A stretch of DNA of 50,240 nt, taken from assembly GCA_903887485.1 (NCBI GenBank), contig CAISPV010000088.1, positions 1 to 50,240 on the forward strand, written 5' to 3'. Below, one piece after another: positions 2,680-44,292 of this stretch (positions are counted from its first letter, which is position 1; each line of letters starts with the position of its first letter). The stretch comes from an uncultured Desulfobulbaceae bacterium (lineage in GTDB: Bacteria > Desulfobacterota > Desulfobulbia > Desulfobulbales > Desulfocapsaceae). The notes beneath the pieces are model-generated. The model searched no databases, was not told the DNA's origin, and saw only the letters and a program-made list of their open reading frames with translations. A program made the position numbers and the translations under genes.

Positions 2680-4038
2680 TCAGCCCAGATCCGCCTTGCT
2701 CACCATGGCGCACAGCTCATCGGCCATGGCCTCAATCATTGACTCATCCTGCCCTTCGACCATCACCCTGATCAATGATTCAGTACCGGATGGACGCACA
2801 AGAATACGTCCGGTATCGCCCAGCTTCTGCTCCATACCCCGTACGGTTGCTGCAAAATCGGGGATATGATTCACATCTATCTGCGAAGAAGTGCGGACAT
2901 TTTTCAGCACCTGCGGAAAGTTCTCCATGACCGAGGCCAGTTCAGAGAGGGGCTTGCGTTGTTTTTTCATAATGGCAAGGAGTTGCAGGGCCGCAAGCGT
3001 GCCGTCGCCGGTCGTGATATGATCAAGAAACACCAGATGCCCGGACTGCTCGCCGCCAAAGGAATAGCCATTTTTCCGCATCTCCTCGACCACGTACCGA
3101 TCACCGACCTTGGTGCGCACCATCCGTCCGCCCATCTGCTGCATAGCCACTTCCAGGCCCATATTGGACATCACGGTCGCCACCAGGGTCTTCTTCTTCA
3201 GCTTCCGCTGCTTCAGCAGCTCGGCGGCGCAAATAGCCATGACATGATCACCGTCAATGATCCGCCCCTTTTCATCAGCAACAATGAGCCGATCGCCGTC
3301 GCCATCGAGCGCCAGACCGATATCGGCGCCAGTCTGCCGCACCACCTCCGCCATGTGCTCCGGATGCAGCGCCCCGCAGTCCTTATTGATATTTGTTCCA
3401 TCCGGGTTCACCCCAAAGGTGGTGACTTTTGCCCCCAGCTCCTCAAAGACATGGGGCGCCACGCCGTAGGTCGCGCCGTGGGCGCAATCAAGGACAATAT
3501 GAAAATCATCCAGAGTAAATTTCTGGGGAAAGGTATTTTTCAGAAAAACGATATACCGGCCCTTGGCATCATCAATTCGGCGAGCCCGTCCGACCTCATC
3601 GGCCACGGGTCTTAAGGCCGCCATCTTCTGGGAGAAGATCAGCTCTTCGATATCCGCCTCATACTCATCCGACAACTTGAACCCATCACGGGAAAAGATC
3701 TTGATCCCATTATCCTGAAAGGGGTTATGGGAGGCCGAGATCACCACGCCGGCATCGGCCCGCATGGAGGTAGTAATAAAGGCAATGCCGGGTGTAGGTA
3801 AAGGACCAACGAGCAGCACGTCCACGCCCATGGAACAGATCCCCGCGGCCAGGGCATTTTCGATCATATATCCTGAGATCCGGGTATCCTTGCCGATTAC
3901 GATCCGGTGCCCATGGGCGTGGTCTTTGACCAGGAAGGCAATGGCCCGGCCAACCTGCATGGCAATCTCGGTGGTCATGGGATAGATATTTGCCACCCCG
4001 CGTATTCCGTCTGTTCCAAATAATTTTTTCATGCTCAT
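2680..4038 (-). CDS. glmM: Phosphoglucosamine mutase GlmM
   Basis: GlmM interconverts glucosamine-6-phosphate and glucosamine-1-phosphate, the step before UDP-GlcNAc synthesis for peptidoglycan and LPS. The 452-residue length is normal. Visible motifs are the N-terminal [14 protein letters not shown], the phosphoserine loop SASHNP (Ser103), the metal-binding DGDGDR (Asp245/247/249) and the C-terminal phosphate-binding [12 protein letters not shown]. Two starts are possible, ATG 4038 or ATG 4032. It is the third gene of cdaA-cdaR-glmM, an arrangement well known from Firmicutes, where the CdaA/CdaR membrane complex and GlmM interact. Its last 316 bp exist in a second, diverged copy at 1572-1887 on the far side of higBA, so the current 3' end may be imported. 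Confidence 0.97.
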
Positions 4039-13003: not shown

Positions 13004-13060
13004 GGTTCCTTCTAAGCCGTTAAAATAACCATATTATTAAATGGCAAGAACGGTTCCTTA
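13004..13060 (-). repeat. Degenerate half-copy of the dispersed intergenic repeat
   Basis: Read on the minus strand, this stretch contains CCGTTCTTGCCAT, about ten variable bases, then GTTATTTTAACGGC, matching the second half of the copy at 37403-37497 (CCGTTCTTGCCAT to GTTATTTTA). The arms CCGTT and AACGG can pair. It lies between the divergent ampG and cysS genes. Confidence 0.55.
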
Positions 13061-16460: not shown

Positions 16461-18317
16461 TTATATTTTGAGCTTAGAAAAAATATATCCTGCTGCTTGT
16501 CCACTACCATAAGAAGTTAAGTGTCCATCATCCCAAAAATAGAAGCCATCAGCACTCTTAAATCGACACTCCTGTTTAATACAAAAAAAATCGCTTGGAT
16601 CGACAAAGCTATTGGTGCCGGCAATTTCCCTCAATTTTGAGTTTATCACATGCAAATCCACGGAGATCGAAGCTTCAGATGTATCTATTTGATGGATATA
16701 ACAATCATTACTGATATCCTGCACACTATGATCGAAACGCGGACTTTGCCCAATAATCAAAACCTTGACTCCTTTTTCACGAAGCAAATCGACTGTTTTT
16801 TTAAGTTCCTCATAAGAAAATCCATTTTTTAGTGCCAAATTCCAGTCAGCCGACATTACAACCACGCGGATGTCATAGCTTGAAATAATACGAAATATTT
16901 GTGCAGAGAAGCTTTTGCATTCTCTGCGAAATTTTGGATCATAATTAAATGCGGGCGCACATCCGCTAGCAGTATACTGCAATACATTGGAGCTAATCAG
17001 GTCCAGATTCTCCTTGATTCCTGGAATATAGTGGGCGGCGAAAGAATCACCCCACAAAAGGGTATTAGATCTATTATGTGACTGCACAAAGCAGGATTTT
17101 TCTTGCCATTCAGAATAGTTCTGATTTTCGTCTAAGAAACATGTGCTCAGGTTGTATTTGGCTAAATCGAAATTAAATGAAACAAGATTATCACCGAATC
17201 TGGCAGGCCATCCCTCTGCAGCTCGAATTGCATAACCAGAAAGGACACTCAACATCATGCCTATTATGGCGGCGATAAATATTCTTTTACGTTGCCGTAG
17301 TGTTCCTCTCTTGCGAAATGGACGCTCAACATACTTCCATGACAATATCGCCATCATGAACGACAACACAACAATACCAACAGTAATAAAAACACTGTGT
17401 TTTTCATAAAATACTTGTTTGGCAAATACTATTATAGGCCAGTGCCATAGATAAAGTGAATACGAAATTAATCCAACAAATACAATAGATCGACAACTCA
17501 GCAATCGACCAGCAACAGATGTTCCATTCTGGCCGGAATAAATTATTAGCGCGGCACCAATACAAGGGAAAAGTGCATAGCCTCCAGGAAATGGTGTTCT
17601 TTCTGAAAACCGAAATATTGCCCATACAATCAATATCAGGCCAATAATTGACGCCACATCCCTCAAACGTTGACTACGGGGCGGGGGAAATAATTCGAGC
17701 GCAAGAAATGAGCCAAAAAGCAGCTCCCAAGCTCTGGTCGGGATCAGATAAAATGTTGCAGAAGGGAAATAATTAACTCCCCAGACACTAAGAACTAGAG
17801 ATATTACCGCAGCAGGCAGAAGAAACATTCTCCAACGACCTTGAAAATACCGATAAATCAGTAAAAGTATGATTGGAAAGATTAAATAGAATTGTTCTTC
17901 GACAGATAAGGACCAGGTATGCAATAGTGGTTTTGTCTCCGCCGCCGCCGAAAAATAATCGGTTTCCTTCAAAAAGAATATATTAGCAATAAAAAGAGTT
18001 GTAGCAATAACACTTTTACCAAAGTTTTTAAAATTCTCAGGAAGCATAAAGATTGCCGCGACAACTAAACAAAACGATATAACTGCAAACAATGCAGGAA
18101 ATATGCGCCTGATACGCCGTTCATAGAAATCAATTATTGTAAATCGGTCCTGCCTTATCTCTTCAGCAATAATCAAAGTTATTAAATAGCCTGAAATAAC
18201 AAAGAAAACATCAACCCCGACAAATCCACCACTGAACAGGTTAATTCCTGTATGATGCAAAACAACAGGAATAATGGCGAGAGCACGAAGTCCATCGATA
18301 TCTGGTCTATATTTCAT
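16461..18317 (-). CDS. OafA/YrhL-type membrane acyltransferase with C-terminal SGNH domain
   Basis: The N-terminal acyltransferase-3 domain (residues 1 to about 350) begins MKYRPDIDGLRALAIIPVVL and has about ten hydrophobic segments; GFVGVDVFFVISGYLIT and the RRIRRIFPAL loop are hallmarks. The C-terminal SGNH hydrolase-like domain (about 390-618) has the GDS block (LLWGDSFAAHY) and the DxxH block (DDGHLTSYG). Such fusions O-acetylate or otherwise acylate O-antigen, capsule or other surface glycans. ATG 18317 is chosen because MKYRPDIDGLRA is the family start; the upstream in-frame codon at 18332 is TTG. The gene is visibly more AT-rich than its neighbours, stands alone and is flanked by two tRNA genes and IS debris, all suggesting horizontal acquisition. 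Confidence 0.92.
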   Translation of the reverse strand: MKYRPDIDGLRALAIIPVVLHHTGINLFSGGFVGVDVFFVISGYLITLIIAEEIRQDRFTIIDFYERRIRRIFPALFAVISFCLVVAAIFMLPENFKNFGKSVIATTLFIANIFFLKETDYFSAAAETKPLLHTWSLSVEEQFYLIFPIILLLIYRYFQGRWRMFLLPAAVISLVLSVWGVNYFPSATFYLIPTRAWELLFGSFLALELFPPPRSQRLRDVASIIGLILIVWAIFRFSERTPFPGGYALFPCIGAALIIYSGQNGTSVAGRLLSCRSIVFVGLISYSLYLWHWPIIVFAKQVFYEKHSVFITVGIVVLSFMMAILSWKYVERPFRKRGTLRQRKRIFIAAIIGMMLSVLSGYAIRAAEGWPARFGDNLVSFNFDLAKYNLSTCFLDENQNYSEWQEKSCFVQSHNRSNTLLWGDSFAAHYIPGIKENLDLISSNVLQYTASGCAPAFNYDPKFRRECKSFSAQIFRIISSYDIRVVVMSADWNLALKNGFSYEELKKTVDLLREKGVKVLIIGQSPRFDHSVQDISNDCYIHQIDTSEASISVDLHVINSKLREIAGTNSFVDPSDFFCIKQECRFKSADGFYFWDDGHLTSYGSGQAAGYIFSKLKI

Positions 18318-29656: not shown

Positions 29657-29757
29657 GATAGCCGGGCACCCTATGGCACACAAAGAGGGTCATTACCGTT
29701 GCTCCCTTCCGGACCTGGCGGAGTTCATGATTCTTTGTTGCACAGGACCCGGCTATC
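29657..29757 (-). ncRNA. ffs: 4.5S RNA (small bacterial SRP RNA)
   Basis: The minus strand has terminal complementary arms (GATAGCCGGG with CCCGGCTATC) and the nearly invariant apical SRP sequence CAGGTCCGGAAGGGAGCAAC. The length of about 101 nt fits the small SRP RNA that binds Ffh. It lies 86 bp upstream of dnaX in the same direction. Confidence 0.95.
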
Positions 29758-31824: not shown

Positions 31825-31874
31825 TATAGCAGAAGCTCTAATAGTAAAAAATAAATTTATACAATATCAAAATG

Positions 31875-31928
31875 TTATTAACAGCAATGAAAAATGAATT
31901 TTCATTCATTTTTCATTGCTGTTAATAA
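31875..31928. repeat. Perfect 24-bp AT-rich inverted repeat
   Basis: The arms at 31875-31898 and 31905-31928 are exact reverse complements separated by TTTTCA. The repeat contains the word AATGAAAAATGAA and its complement. It lies in the spacer between divergent genes, without a clean T-run. Confidence 0.9.
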
Positions 31929-36475: not shown

Positions 36476-37345
36476 TTATGTCATCTTCTTGGCATGCAAG
36501 ACCCTGTCCCGGCCAGTATAATCCTGCAACACCTCAACCCGCTCAAAGGTTTGCACGCCATCATCACTGGTAAAAAGCTGCATGACTGCCGGCCCCTGAT
36601 CTGCACCAATCTCCATAAAAAATTCACCGCCGGGCCTCAGCACCTGAGGCAAAGTTCTGTATATCCGTTGGATAATATCCAGCCCACCGACTCCACCATT
36701 GAGCGCCAGGTGCGGCTCAAAACACGCCACCTCTGGTTGCAATCCATCTCGCAGCTCCTGTTCACTCACATAGGGAGGATTAGAAACCACCAAGGAGAAA
36801 TGGGGGTGGGGGATAAAGGCACTGAGCAGATCTGCCTGCACCAAAGCAAGGCGATCAGCGACCCGATGCCTTGCCGCGTTTTTCTGGGTAACTTGCAAGG
36901 CTTGCGCCGAAAGGTCAACGGCTGTCACCATGCGTCCCATTTCAAGAGCGAGAATGATCCCAATAACCCCGCTGCCACAACAAAGATCAAGAACAGGGCC
37001 AGGTTGCCATTGCCCGTTTCTCGTTGCAGCAAAGACAGCCTCCAAAAGAAACTCTGTCTCAGGTCTCGGGATAAGGACTGCCGGGGTCACTAGAAAAGAA
37101 AGGGACCAAAACTCCTTTTCACCCAGGATATAGGCCGTGGGCTCATGCCCGGCCCGACGCGCCAGAAGGGTTAAAAATTCCTGTTCCTGTCGCTCATCCA
37201 CTTCAAATCTTGCCGCCAGAAACAGTCCTGATCTGGATTTTTTAAGACAGAACCCCAAAAGCAGTTCAACCTCAAGGGCAGCTTGTTCGACACCTGCCAC
37301 TTCAAGCTGACTGACTCCAAAACGAACAAGATCAATGACACGCAT
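36476..37345 (-). CDS. prmC: Release factor glutamine methyltransferase PrmC (HemK)
   Basis: PrmC methylates the glutamine of the GGQ motif in RF1 and RF2. The SAM-binding motif is VLDLCCGSGVIGI and the substrate-glutamine motif NPPY is in VVSNPPYVSE. I prefer ATG 37345 (MRVIDLVRFG, 289 residues) over an upstream in-frame TTG at 37378. It follows prfA, its substrate gene, in the usual order, but a dispersed repeat (37403-37497) lies between them. Confidence 0.95.
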   Translation of the reverse strand: MRVIDLVRFGVSQLEVAGVEQAALEVELLLGFCLKKSRSGLFLAARFEVDERQEQEFLTLLARRAGHEPTAYILGEKEFWSLSFLVTPAVLIPRPETEFLLEAVFAATRNGQWQPGPVLDLCCGSGVIGIILALEMGRMVTAVDLSAQALQVTQKNAARHRVADRLALVQADLLSAFIPHPHFSLVVSNPPYVSEQELRDGLQPEVACFEPHLALNGGVGGLDIIQRIYRTLPQVLRPGGEFFMEIGADQGPAVMQLFTSDDGVQTFERVEVLQDYTGRDRVLHAKKMT

Positions 37346-37402
37346 GAAAAAAGGAAAGCCAGAGATAAAAGAAATCAAGACAGAAGAGAACCAGCAGAGA
37401 AC

Positions 37403-37497
37403 TTAGGAGCCGTAACGAAATAACTGTTACATCCCTGACCATTTCGTTACGGCTCCTTAAGCCGTTCTTGCCATATAAATGTAACAGTTATTTTATT
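37403..37497. repeat. Dispersed structured intergenic repeat, best copy
   Basis: A 17-bp perfect inverted repeat (37405-37421 with 37441-37457; arm AGGAGCCGTAACGAAAT) is overlapped by a second one of 15 bp (37418-37432 with 37479-37493; arm AAATAACTGTTACAT). The two cannot form at the same time without a pseudoknot. The element aligns without gaps over about 93 bp with 42565-42657. Confidence 0.85.
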
Positions 37498-37525
37498 CCA
37501 ACAATTTAATTCAGAGAGTAAACAC

Positions 37526-38593
37526 CTACTCTAGTTCTTTCAACTTTTCCGCCTGATCATGACCGATCAACGGATCAATAACCTCGTCCAGTTTGCCATC
37601 CATAATCGAATCAAGTCGGTACAGGGTAAGATTAATGCGATGATCCGTCAGGCGCCCCTGAGGGAAGTTATAGGTGCGGATACGCTCGCTCCGATCACCA
37701 CTGCCAACCTGACTTTTACGATCCAGAGAGATCTTATCATGATGGGCCTGCTGTACCTGATCAAACAACCTGGCCCGCAACACCGTCAAGGCCTTGGCCT
37801 TATTTTTGTGCTGAGACTTCTCATCCTGACAGATAACCACCAGGCCCGTTGGCAAATGGGTTACCCGTACCGCCGAATCAGTTGTATTCACGCTCTGTCC
37901 ACCAGGCCCGGAGGAACGAAAGACATCAAATTTCAACTCATTCATCTTGATATCTACTTCTACCTCATCTGCCTCAGGTAAAATGGCAACAGTCACTGCC
38001 GAGGTATGAATACGCCCCTGAGTCTCTGTCTCGGGAACCCGCTGCACCCGGTGGGTTCCGCTCTCATACTTCATCTTGGAGTAGACCTGCTCGCCACTAA
38101 TCAGAGAAATAATCTCTTTAAAACCACCCGTCCCCAAAGAGCTGGAAGACATCACCTCCATCTTCCAACCTTGAGACTCGGCAAAACGGGAATACATCCG
38201 ATACAAATCACCCACAAAAAGTGCCGCTTCATCACCACCCGTCCCGGCACGAATCTCCAGGAAAGTATTACGCTCATCATTAGGATCTTTTGGCAGCAGC
38301 AAGAGACGAATATCATCTTGCAAAACCCTTTCTTTCTCCTTCAGCTCCTCAATCTCGACCCTTGCCATCTCTTGGATCTCTTCATCTTCATCACCCTGAA
38401 GAAGCAGCTTGTTATTCTCAACAGCCATCTCTACCTGTTGATACTGCGTATAAAGAGTGTAAAGCTTTAGCAGATGCGCATGCTCTCTCGCCACCTTCTG
38501 ATAAGCCTTCTGATCATTCATGAGCGATGGATCAGAAAGCCTACCCTCAAGATGGGCAACCTTTTCTTGCAGATCGTCAAACTTATCAAACAT
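37526..38593 (-). CDS. prfA: Peptide chain release factor 1
   Basis: RF1 reads UAA and UAG. The GGQ motif is in [11 protein letters not shown] (231-233 from ATG 38593), and the stop-codon-reading PxT tripeptide is PET (in [13 protein letters not shown]), where E. coli has PAT. ATG 38593 is chosen; the frame extends three codons to a TTG at 38602. Length is 355 residues, normal for RF1. It follows a terminator downstream of rpmE and so may have its own promoter or depend on read-through. Confidence 0.97.
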
Positions 38594-38632
38594 GGGATTC
38601 AAGAGGCAGGATGAGTGATGCGTGAAGAAAAC

Positions 38633-40973: not shown

Positions 40974-41570
40974 TCAACCACTCAAAAAACTGGCCAGATG
41001 ATAGATCTGCAGGATTGTCAGGGCCAAAGGACCGGAATTTTCAATCACCGAATCAGCCCGCAAGGCTTTTTCCTCAAGAGAAATCTGGGTGCTCAGAGCA
41101 GCCCTACTAGCCTCTAGGCTTACCAAGTCACGTCTGACAATACGTTGGGCACAACACTCATGCCCTGCATAGACGACAACAATCCAATCGAAATCATCCT
41201 GCCAGCCGACCTCAAACAGCAAGGGTACCTCAACCACCATCCCTGTCAGACTCGACCTCTTTTCTGCTGCCCGGCTCATGATTTCCTGACGAACAAGCGG
41301 ATGCAGGATGCGCTCTACCCCTTGACGCACCACAAGATCTACAAACAGGGCCTTACGCAGAGCAGGCCGATCAATATTGCCGGTCAAATCAAAAAAACGA
41401 GCACCCCATTTTTTCTGGATACCCAGCCATCCTGGCATATGCGGTTGTAACAGATTACGGCACAGAATATCAGTATCAAGCACATCATAAGCCAGCAATT
41501 TGCCCAGAAGTCCTGCCACAATACTCTTGCCTGCACCCATACCTCCTGTAACTCCGACAATCACAAGCAC
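40974..41570 (-). CDS. coaE: Dephospho-CoA kinase
   Basis: CoaE phosphorylates dephospho-CoA in the last step of coenzyme A synthesis. The 198-residue protein has a P-loop GVTGGMGAGKS at the N-terminus, DVLDTDILCRNLL and VVEVPLLFEVGWQ, which are conserved. The start is GTG 41570, within the last codons of the upstream pseudouridine synthase gene (10-bp overlap), so translation is probably coupled. Confidence 0.95.
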   Translation of the reverse strand: MLVIVGVTGGMGAGKSIVAGLLGKLLAYDVLDTDILCRNLLQPHMPGWLGIQKKWGARFFDLTGNIDRPALRKALFVDLVVRQGVERILHPLVRQEIMSRAAEKRSSLTGMVVEVPLLFEVGWQDDFDWIVVVYAGHECCAQRIVRRDLVSLEASRAALSTQISLEEKALRADSVIENSGPLALTILQIYHLASFLSG

Positions 41571-42544
41571 TCCCGCTCGACTTGTTTTGTTTCATCGGCA
41601 AGCTGATCAAGAATCAAGGAAAAATCAGGCCACAATGGGGCCGAAAAAACAAGGGACCCTCCGGTAACAGGATGGATAAAACTCAATTGGGTGGAATGAA
41701 GCAATTGCCTGGGAAATTTTCTTTTTCCCCGTCCGCCACTATAGACATTATCACCAGCTACGGGATGCCCTATGGAAGCCATGTGCACTCGAATCTGATG
41801 AGTACGCCCGGTTTCAATCTGGAGCCGAACAAGACTGAACCCAGAAGAAAATTCCTGAAGCACCTGCCAACTTGTGGCAGCGTACCTTCCATCCTCCTTG
41901 ATAGCCATTTTCTGACGATGCACCGGGTGTCTGCCAATTGCCGCCACGATCCGCCCTGTTTTCTGCTCCAGAATACCATGCAGCAAGGCCAGGTATTGTT
42001 TATCAACCATTCGGGCCTTAAAGGCATCAACAAGTTTTCGATGCGTCCCCTCCTCTTTGGCCACAACCATAAGGCCAGAGGTATCTTTATCAAGACGATG
42101 GACAATCCCGGGCCTGACCGCATCATCACCAACACCGGCAATGGCTTGGCAATGATACAGCAAGCCATTCACCAGGGTACCTGTCTGATTTCCACTGCCA
42201 GGATGCACGACCAGCCCAGGAGGCTTAGAAAGGACCAGGAGATACGAATCCTCAAAAAGGATTTCAAAGGGTATTTTCTCCGGCAATAGATCCATTGCCG
42301 GAACCACAAACAGAGATCCGGCGACACACTCTCCAGCCTTCAAACAATAGCTGCTTTTCCTTTCAAGACTATCAACCTTGATCAATCCAACCCGAACAGA
42401 TTCAGTTAAAATCGAACGGGAGGCCTCAGGGACAGCACGCACCAGAAAGTGATCTAAACGACACCCAGCCTGCTCGGCTGGGACATAAAAGATAAAAAAA
42501 TTCTCTGAAGGAGAAGGAACAAAAGAAGATTGAAAATGACTCAT
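41561..42544 (-). CDS. RluA/RluD-family 23S rRNA pseudouridine synthase
   Basis: This protein has an S4-like domain (CRLDHFLVRAVPEASRS onward) and a pseudouridine synthase domain with the catalytic aspartate in GIVHRLDKDTSGLMVVAK, plus ETGRTHQIRVHMASIGHPV. RluD modifies helix 69 of 23S rRNA; the family is clear, the exact target positions are not. ATG 42544 (MSHFQSSF) is chosen since ATG 42577 lies inside a dispersed repeat element; length from 42544 is 327 residues. The gene is translationally coupled to coaE. Confidence 0.92.
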   Translation of the reverse strand: MSHFQSSFVPSPSENFFIFYVPAEQAGCRLDHFLVRAVPEASRSILTESVRVGLIKVDSLERKSSYCLKAGECVAGSLFVVPAMDLLPEKIPFEILFEDSYLLVLSKPPGLVVHPGSGNQTGTLVNGLLYHCQAIAGVGDDAVRPGIVHRLDKDTSGLMVVAKEEGTHRKLVDAFKARMVDKQYLALLHGILEQKTGRIVAAIGRHPVHRQKMAIKEDGRYAATSWQVLQEFSSGFSLVRLQIETGRTHQIRVHMASIGHPVAGDNVYSGGRGKRKFPRQLLHSTQLSFIHPVTGGSLVFSAPLWPDFSLILDQLADETKQVERECL

Positions 42545-42564
42545 GACTGACAGCCATGCAAAGA

Positions 42565-42673
42565 CTTTAGGAGCCATTGCGAAAGAACTATTACATTTTT
42601 GACCATTTCCTTACGGCCCCTTATGCCGTTCATGGTATTTCAATGTTACAGTTATTTTTGAACAACGGCTTAT
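42565..42673. repeat. Dispersed structured intergenic repeat, second full copy
   Basis: It aligns without gaps to 37403-37497: TTAGGAGCC at the left, TGACCATTTC in the middle, TGCCGTTC, and ATGTTACAGTTATTTT at the right. Here the right part extends to GAACAACGGCTTA, which pairs with TATGCCGTTC to form an outer hairpin. It lies between carD and the pseudouridine synthase gene. Confidence 0.85.
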
Positions 42674-42731: not shown

Positions 42732-43214
42732 TCAAGAGAACATCTTCTCAATCTGATCTGCAGTTTTGGTCTCATCCATATCCCGGGCCAAAGAAATTTC
42801 TTTTACTAGAAGATTTTTCGCGGTATCCATCATCTTTCTCTCTCCATAGGAGAGTTCTTTATCGACGCTAAGAAGAAACAGATCCCGGAGAACAACCGCC
42901 ACCTCAAAAATGGATCCCGTCTTGATCTTTTCCATGTAATCGCGATAACGACGGTTCCAGGTCTGGGCGCTGATCGAAATATCCCGATCCCGCAAAATCA
43001 CCATAACCTTTTCCACCTCAGTTTTATCAATAATAGCACGAAGTCCTACATTAGCACTGTTTCTGGTAGGAATCATGATCTTCATATCATTTTCAATGAT
43101 CTTCATGACATAAAATGAATGATCCGTCCCCGCAACCGTCTGAGTCTCTATAGACTCAATCACCCCTACACCATGAGCCGGATAAACGGCCATATCGCCT
43201 GCAAGAAACACCAT
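42732..43214 (-). CDS. CarD/CdnL-family RNA polymerase-binding regulator
   Basis: CarD-type proteins bind the RNA polymerase beta subunit and stabilise open promoter complexes, often at rRNA promoters. The N-terminal Tudor-like domain reads FLAGDMAVYPAHGVGVIESI; the C-terminal helical DNA-binding domain contains WNRRYRDYMEKIKTGSIFEV and LSYGERKMMDTAKNLLV. The 160-residue length is normal. It has a GGAGG site directly before ATG 43214. Confidence 0.95.
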   Translation of the reverse strand: MVFLAGDMAVYPAHGVGVIESIETQTVAGTDHSFYVMKIIENDMKIMIPTRNSANVGLRAIIDKTEVEKVMVILRDRDISISAQTWNRRYRDYMEKIKTGSIFEVAVVLRDLFLLSVDKELSYGERKMMDTAKNLLVKEISLARDMDETKTADQIEKMFS

Positions 43215-44067: not shown

Positions 44068-44241
44068 ACAGTCACATCAAGCCATCTTCAGAAATAACTG
44101 GGACATTGAGATATTATCATGCTCATCACAAGGGGCTTGTCGCTCTTCACACCCCAAGAGCACATCATTTGGGAGCCCACTCCGCAAGCAACAACTATGT
44201 CAGATAAGCGAAACGAAGACAAGACTCCGACCACATGGTCA

Positions 44242-44292
44242 TCGTAACGAAATAACCAGAGAGGCATTTGTTCTTTTGTTACGGCTCCTAAA
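44242..44292. repeat. Dispersed intergenic repeat, partial copy
   Basis: TCGTAACGAAATAAC at the left and GTTACGGCTCCTAA at the right match the outer hairpin of the copy at 37403-37497, with a different middle. The arms still pair (CGTAACGAAATAAC with GTTCTTTTGTTACG, 12 of 14). It lies between pth and the rplY terminator. Confidence 0.65.

Follow-up and report, generated by a model that had tools for sequence, protein, structure and literature searches.

The intergenic repeat described here belongs to a genuine, mobile family with members in MAGs from several phyla. A complete copy is 106 bp long, is non-coding, and consists of two successive hairpins whose loops are complementary to each other. 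Our preferred explanation, which we regard as probable but by no means secure, is that the family comprises short non-autonomous mobile elements, which a Y1 (HUH) enzyme may mobilize in trans in the form of single-stranded DNA. Elements of this kind are already known, and the unusual traits of this one are the pairing of its loops and its landing at stop codons. We advance only tentatively the further proposal that it represents a new class of single-stranded DNA mobile element that has loop-paired ends, lands directly after TAA with an end of its own that imitates the target, uses stop codons as safe sites, and has crossed phylum borders. A search of openly accessible papers found no published account of this repeat, and the family has been missed by annotation pipelines in many sediment and groundwater genomes.

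Copies within the analyzed window

The window is the whole 50,240-nucleotide stretch of DNA analyzed here, from an uncultured Desulfobulbaceae bacterium. Copy 1 is a full element with a decayed right end (37403-37508, plus strand in the orientation of model R1, 99.4 bits); copy 2 is also a full element (42567-42672, plus strand, 101.7 bits). The original prediction had placed an element at 37403-37497 and 42565-42673; these are real copies, but their full length is 106 bp, with the boundaries given above. Two partial copies that had also been proposed are indeed related and prove to be halves, both on the minus strand: 44242-44292 consists of hairpin 1 only and 13004-13060 of hairpin 2 only. 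For the former, a weak full-length match to the covariance model covers 44196-44291, and the latter is not listed by the model at E ≤ 0.5. When compared with element parts, all four places outscore every one of 1002 mononucleotide-shuffled segments. A further model match, at 31868-31925, was dropped after comparison with element parts and shuffled segments.

In the model orientation, the element reads TTA, hairpin 1, TTA, hairpin 2, TTA, which is TAA on the opposite strand. The consensus is TTA - GGAGCCGTTACGAAAT - loop - ATTTCGTTACGGCTCC - TTA - T - GCCGTT - loop - AACGGC - TTA. Copy 1 contains, as had been claimed, two perfect and overlapping inverted repeats, with 4 nt in common. The first forms hairpin 1 (37405-37457, plus strand), with 17-bp arms at 37405-37421 and 37441-37457. 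The second is a 15-nt complementarity (37418-37493, plus strand) between 37418-37432, in the loop of hairpin 1, and 37479-37493, in the loop of hairpin 2. Hairpin 2 itself (37461-37505, plus strand) pairs GCCGTT (37461-37466) with a decayed arm at 37500-37505.

Both full copies sit between genes of the same strand. By transcription, copy 1 has upstream of it prfA, coding for release factor 1 (37526-38602, minus strand; PCRF and RF-1 domains), and downstream a PrmC-type methyltransferase gene (36476-37378, minus strand). The prfA stop is 17 bp from copy 1, which does not lie on it. Copy 2 lies between a CarD-like gene upstream (42732-43214, minus strand) and a pseudouridine synthase gene downstream (41561-42577, minus strand). 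All four window copies are intergenic, as originally stated, with the reservation that the longest ORF of the synthase gene, 41561-42577, may begin inside copy 2. Intrinsic terminators were considered as an identity and rejected, with no terminator-like site inside either full copy; next to copy 2 or straddling its edge are two terminator-like sites and a promoter-like one.

Copy number and distribution

A covariance model built from 63 copies finds 83 places in the genome that contains the window, and the prediction that these sequences form a family therefore stands. This count applies at E ≤ 0.001 and results from merging 102 rows for overlap and reverse strand, with 150 of 1463 candidates scored; the weakest of the 83 may be sister repeats. 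With a window copy as query, blastn gave 48 rows in the same genome (40 of 66 candidates scored) and matched 22 of 38 genomes, own genome included. By rank, matches occur in all 17 genomes of the genus, in 1 of 8 other members of the family and in 4 of 13 other members of the order. In a sample of the phylum searched with stricter filters, 6 of 198 genomes match at E ≤ 1e-5, and the distribution beyond the genus is patchy.

An exact 23-base core is present in at least 118 stretches. The MAGs that carry it, many of them from uncultured sediment and groundwater bacteria, have labels that include Desulfobulbaceae, Desulfocapsaceae, Desulfurivibrio, Desulfoarculaceae, Geobacter, Methylomirabilota, Holophagaceae, Acidobacteria and others, although such taxonomic labels can be wrong. 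Three Holophagaceae loci have a common variant of their own, which argues against stray contamination there. The MAG designated G232, labeled Methylomirabilota, contains the element at 75 places, of which 73 are nearly full-length; its main subfamily comprises 22 copies with a median difference of 2 in 106 bases and at most 5. Carriage by phages or plasmids was rejected after blastn gave no match in phage or plasmid records, and viral contigs contain no exact match to two element patterns.

Empty sites and the insertion target

For 25 copies in the own genome, the flanks were joined without the element and searched in four congeners, from which 28 matching stretches were fetched. Alignment was carried out for 27 pairs of filled site and relative; the pair L276/L202, with an unalignable left flank, was omitted. 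In five pairs the flanks align completely and are separated by exactly three bases (TTA, TTA, TCA, TTC and CCA). Two more, both involving L194, have CTG with a one-base shift; two involving L197 have two bases between the flanks; and seven have a single TTA at the junction or one base off, with 1-6 bases of the left flank unaligned. Poorly aligned left flanks accompany TCA (L272) and TTG (L275) in a further two. The remaining pairs are ambiguous (L269 and L281), have a shared insertion (L314), or are too diverged (six pairs). Thus, congeners lack the element and have a single triplet at positions where filled sites have two, one per end, and because of these empty sites we conclude that the element is mobile.

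Each insertion point is a single short target, most commonly TTA. There are exceptions, in that L204 and L193, which have TTA on both sides, correspond to TCA or TTC in relatives, and L186 (left TTG, right TTA) corresponds to TTA in G015 and to CCA in G012. At three filled sites whose two triplets differ, the empty site agrees with the right one: L194 has TTA on the left and CTG on the right, with CTG in two relatives; L200 has TGA on the left and TTA on the right, with TTA when empty; and L186 agrees on the right in G015. We therefore favor, short of proof, the reading that the old target is the triplet at the right end and that the TTA at the left end is the element's own.

A competing explanation is that the element is a classical MITE, that is, the relic of a DDE insertion sequence whose transposase binds similar ends and duplicates a 3-bp TTA target. 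We consider this possible but rather unlikely. The ends are partly inverted repeats: in many copies the terminal TTA (left) or inward TAA (right) is followed by 12 nt and then AAATAAC, and the covarying loop arms described below could be inner parts of such ends. TTA is present at the left end of 150 of 166 copies and at the right end of 128, with a single triplet when the site is empty. The size and the non-coding, intergenic, multi-copy habit fit as well, as do the empty sites; the available parts of two papers describe bacterial MITEs (Correia/NEMIS, RUP, Chunjie, ERIC) as similar in size, in being non-coding and intergenic, and in having target-like ends (PMC2229807, PMC10969869).

However, the unlike triplets of L194, L186 and L200 match the empty site on the right only, and a non-TTA triplet is found on the left in 16 of 166 copies and on the right in 38 (p = 0.0016, with copies that are not independent). 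This asymmetry is conservative because the search pattern allowed fewer changes on the right. In G232, non-TTA triplets number 0 on the left and 7 of 45 on the right. A target duplication, for which a check had been suggested, would fit the TTA at both ends of most copies, but at the informative sites with unlike triplets the match is on the right only. Typical MITEs have TA ends and a duplicated target, whereas the ends here are TTA and the evidence leans against duplication. Moreover, this element has two hairpins by virtue of an additional, third arm in its interior, and hairpin 1 with its inner arm would be unnecessary for a DDE end. One-ended copies among the matches listed were reverse-strand self matches, diverged copies, or copies interrupted by another repeat, and none in the fetched loci was recognized as an autonomous relative with these ends. 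The earlier suggestion of a MITE is borne out as to mobility, though we do not class the element as a proven MITE.

Conserved hairpins with complementary loops

Copy 1 folds as RNA with a z score of -5.78, and none of 200 shuffles was as good or better; taken singly, the other three window copies are near chance (z = -1.51, -1.92 and -1.42). Structural statistics were obtained from 63 aligned copies, 38 of whose rows come from loci found through the exact core. Base pairs were assigned by hand and then counted; RNAalifold gave no structure on this alignment. Over the 63 sequences, pairing is present in 88.7% of cells for stem 1, 91.5% for stem 2 and 65.7% for the loop-loop helix. A T.T mismatch in the middle of hairpin 1 (columns 12/48) occurs in 59 of 63 copies, and copy 1 is among the few that are perfect.

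It had been proposed that the two inverted repeats compete, so that an RNA could switch between two folds. This idea is not supported: in 62 of 63 copies the pair of hairpins has a lower energy than the long hairpin that would replace it, with medians of -23.7 versus -4.6 kcal/mol, and the pair is favored in 61 of 63 copies on the opposite strand (RNA energies in both cases). Given this difference in stability, we prefer to interpret the second inverted repeat as loop-loop pairing, through which the two hairpins could kiss. In the mechanism that we envisage, such kissing loops would unite the two ends of the element.

The loop-loop helix has 81 double changes that keep pairing, versus 47.6 ± 5.8 in shuffles and 26-50 in versions slid out of register, and a covariation score of 0.247 versus 0.145 (shuffled) and 0.09-0.11 (slid), although kinship among copies inflates such counts. 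In two other measures there is no excess: pairs with a double change number 8 versus 8.2 in shuffles, and pair types 28 versus 28.7. The claim that structure is kept by compensation is accordingly upheld by the double changes but not by these latter measures. That two of five measures are no better than shuffles is compatible with a second alternative, in which complementarity was never selected for pairing, and the inverted repeats close to the ends stay alike either because an enzyme binds both or because template switching at quasi-palindromes makes them uniform. Paired arms are, after all, inverted repeats by definition. Nevertheless, the arms are not generally evened out, given the prevalence of the T.T mismatch (59 of 63), and the sequence of the loop arms varies freely while their complementarity persists; we consider this alternative doubtful. 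If the loops do pair as we suppose, their free variation combined with complementarity makes the pairing of ends through kissing hairpins directly testable.

Insertion at stop codons

Stop codons are hit above their share of the available TAA sites. In G232, 27 of 42 right ends follow an open frame of at least 100 codons that ends there, versus 14 and 3 in the other frames. The triplets at these ends are TAA (23), TGA (2), TAG (1) and TAC (1), and 26 of the 42 copies give a long open frame an in-frame stop. Elsewhere, 21 of 93 right ends follow such a frame (other frames, 8 and 9). In the own genome, the numbers are 5 of 23 (other frames, 1 and 1), with two of the five ending in CAA, which is no stop; at a threshold of at least 60 codons a different frame reaches 7, so the excess is small there. 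Frames of at least 100 codons also end at the TAG of the left-hand TTAG, in 7 of 23 own-genome copies (other frames, 1 and 2) and in 17 of 90 copies elsewhere (6 and 4); in G232 the value is at background level (9 of 44, versus 13 and 14). Distances from element to ORF end peak at exactly -4 and -3, in a set in which the genome labels of four loci are wrong. For comparison, TAA stops account for about 4% relative to the extragenic TAA sites of the window (14 versus 349), and the corresponding value in ten copy-holding G232 loci is 0 to 0.5, mostly near 0.1, both on crude gene calls. Loss of harmful insertions may account for part of the excess.

Because the element starts with TTAG and inserts at TTA(G), a gene hit at its stop codon still has a stop afterward; this shared beginning of element and target preserves a stop for either neighboring gene. 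Two G232 insertions lie at sites where relatives have TGA stops. At L204 (the end of an nrdR-like gene) and at elements 1 and 3 of L057, the element-free relatives have TGA and the filled allele TAA. The stop codon at these loci changed with or before insertion. If our explanation is correct, a tiny parasite multiplies in compact genomes almost harmlessly by rebuilding the stop codon on which it lands.

A cis-acting RNA at gene 3' ends, selected there for mRNA stability or processing and moving only secondarily, would suit the many copies that, read in the sense direction, directly follow a stop codon, the same-strand genes around both full window copies, and the effects on mRNA reported for REP and ERIC, but it is improbable, given that neighbors vary by copy with no conserved gene set (25 clusters listed), that G232 copies are young yet already at stops, and that the window copies contain no terminator-like site.

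Relation to known elements

The original statement that the element is not recognizable as a known REP, ERIC or RUP is supported. E. coli carries REP and ERIC, and one copy gave no blastn match in an E. coli collection; nor did Rfam yield a match over the element at the gathering score, its five matches in the window all lying elsewhere. We file the element with neither REP nor IS200/IS605, although it works most like them, because the tested features fail for both.

Like REP/BIME sequences (RAYT, TnpA-REP), the copies are short, intergenic, multi-copy hairpins that form mosaics of units. TnpA-REP requires a tag in the REP hairpins that it recognizes, as well as a mismatch in those of E. coli (PMC8266576), and Pseudomonas REP has heads such as GTAGGAGC (PMC2817692). 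The element similarly has a tag, TTAG, directly before the hairpin and a stem irregularity in its prevalent T.T mismatch. However, this tag departs from the GTAG (or CGTC) by which the part of PMC3733652 consulted defines REP/BIME. Also unlike REP/BIME, the 106-bp unit joins two unlike hairpins with complementary loops, TTA stands at both ends in the same direction rather than as inverted heads, and no RAYT adjoins any copy in the loci examined.

IS200/IS605 elements and their non-autonomous derivatives share with our element the end hairpins, a target-like end and, on the reading favored here, insertion 3' of a short target. In contrast, no tnpA (Y1) lies between the ends of this element in the loci examined. 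The IS200/IS605 guide tetranucleotide, which PMC6006769 places 5' of each hairpin foot and distinguishes from the target, is also missing: read along the minus strand, the hairpin directly follows TAA.

Two other comparisons are brief. The MIRU of mycobacteria is a small repeat at gene junctions that contain a stop codon; as generally described, it has this placement in common with the element and differs in sequence and target. An integron attC site was rejected, the core boxes (RYYYAAC and GTTRRRY) being absent from the consensus by eye.

Candidate enzymes

Units are also found singly, and head-to-tail copies have one TTA in common (L055 and L132). This last feature, together with the polarity of the element and the hairpin with its fixed mismatch, suggests single-strand transposition by a Y1 enzyme. 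On the minus strand, which would be the transposing strand of copy 1, the element would be inserted 3' of a TAA target and would terminate in its own TAA, with a presumed Y1 (HUH) enzyme acting in trans on single-stranded DNA. It is from architecture and polarity that we infer such an enzyme.

There are 10 Y1_Tnp genes in the own genome and 5 in G232. RAYT-like proteins of the two are 42-53% alike, with Y1_Tnp confirmed for two, in a comparison covering the L174, L237 and L239 proteins. A RAYT-like match is present in 22 of 22 element-bearing genomes versus 10 of 16 others (p = 0.003), a weak association, in that 17 of the 22 come from one genus and some matches, such as that in G015, are remnants. 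Several observations stand against our preferred explanation: the Y1 loci examined are free of copies, G015 is copy-rich yet has Y1 only as a remnant, some targets are not TTA, the guide tetranucleotide is missing, and the own genome has only a small excess at stop codons. Specifically, 63 partly overlapping Y1_Tnp/RAYT loci (with flanks of about 1.5 kb where the contig allowed) contain no copy (best E, 0.41), the chance expectation being about 2.4 copies in 28 of them, and fuzzy matching around 15 Y1 loci detected no part of the element. Among recurrent neighboring proteins in the 25 clusters listed, no transposase was recognized by eye. The MAG with 75 places and the clean empty sites provide material for finding the enzyme.

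Associated repeats and other RNAs

A sister repeat occurs in tandem at L043, L179 (G000:C84, approximately 2836-3053) and L151. Its first hairpin (TTTAGAAGCCGTTA...) is like that of the element, T.T mismatch included; its second half is different and ends in GGAGTTGGCGGTTTAG. The right flank of L191 (G000:C90, approximately 17355-17490) has a further repeat (TTATGCCGCTTCAAAGAAACAGCC...GGCTGGTTCTTTGAGAGGCG, on one strand), which adjoins a first hairpin of divergent sequence and has dozens of matches in the congeners G004, G015, G002 and G012 (query positions 1576-1653). A GC-rich hairpin (...TGTCGCTCGC...GAGCGACC) lies inside the element at G000:C101:11508-11667, G000:C56:14888-15053, L158 and L019; in several copies it is located at the same place, in the second arm of hairpin 1. 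The window also contains a small SRP RNA (29657-29754, minus strand) and four tRNA genes, all of them ordinary.
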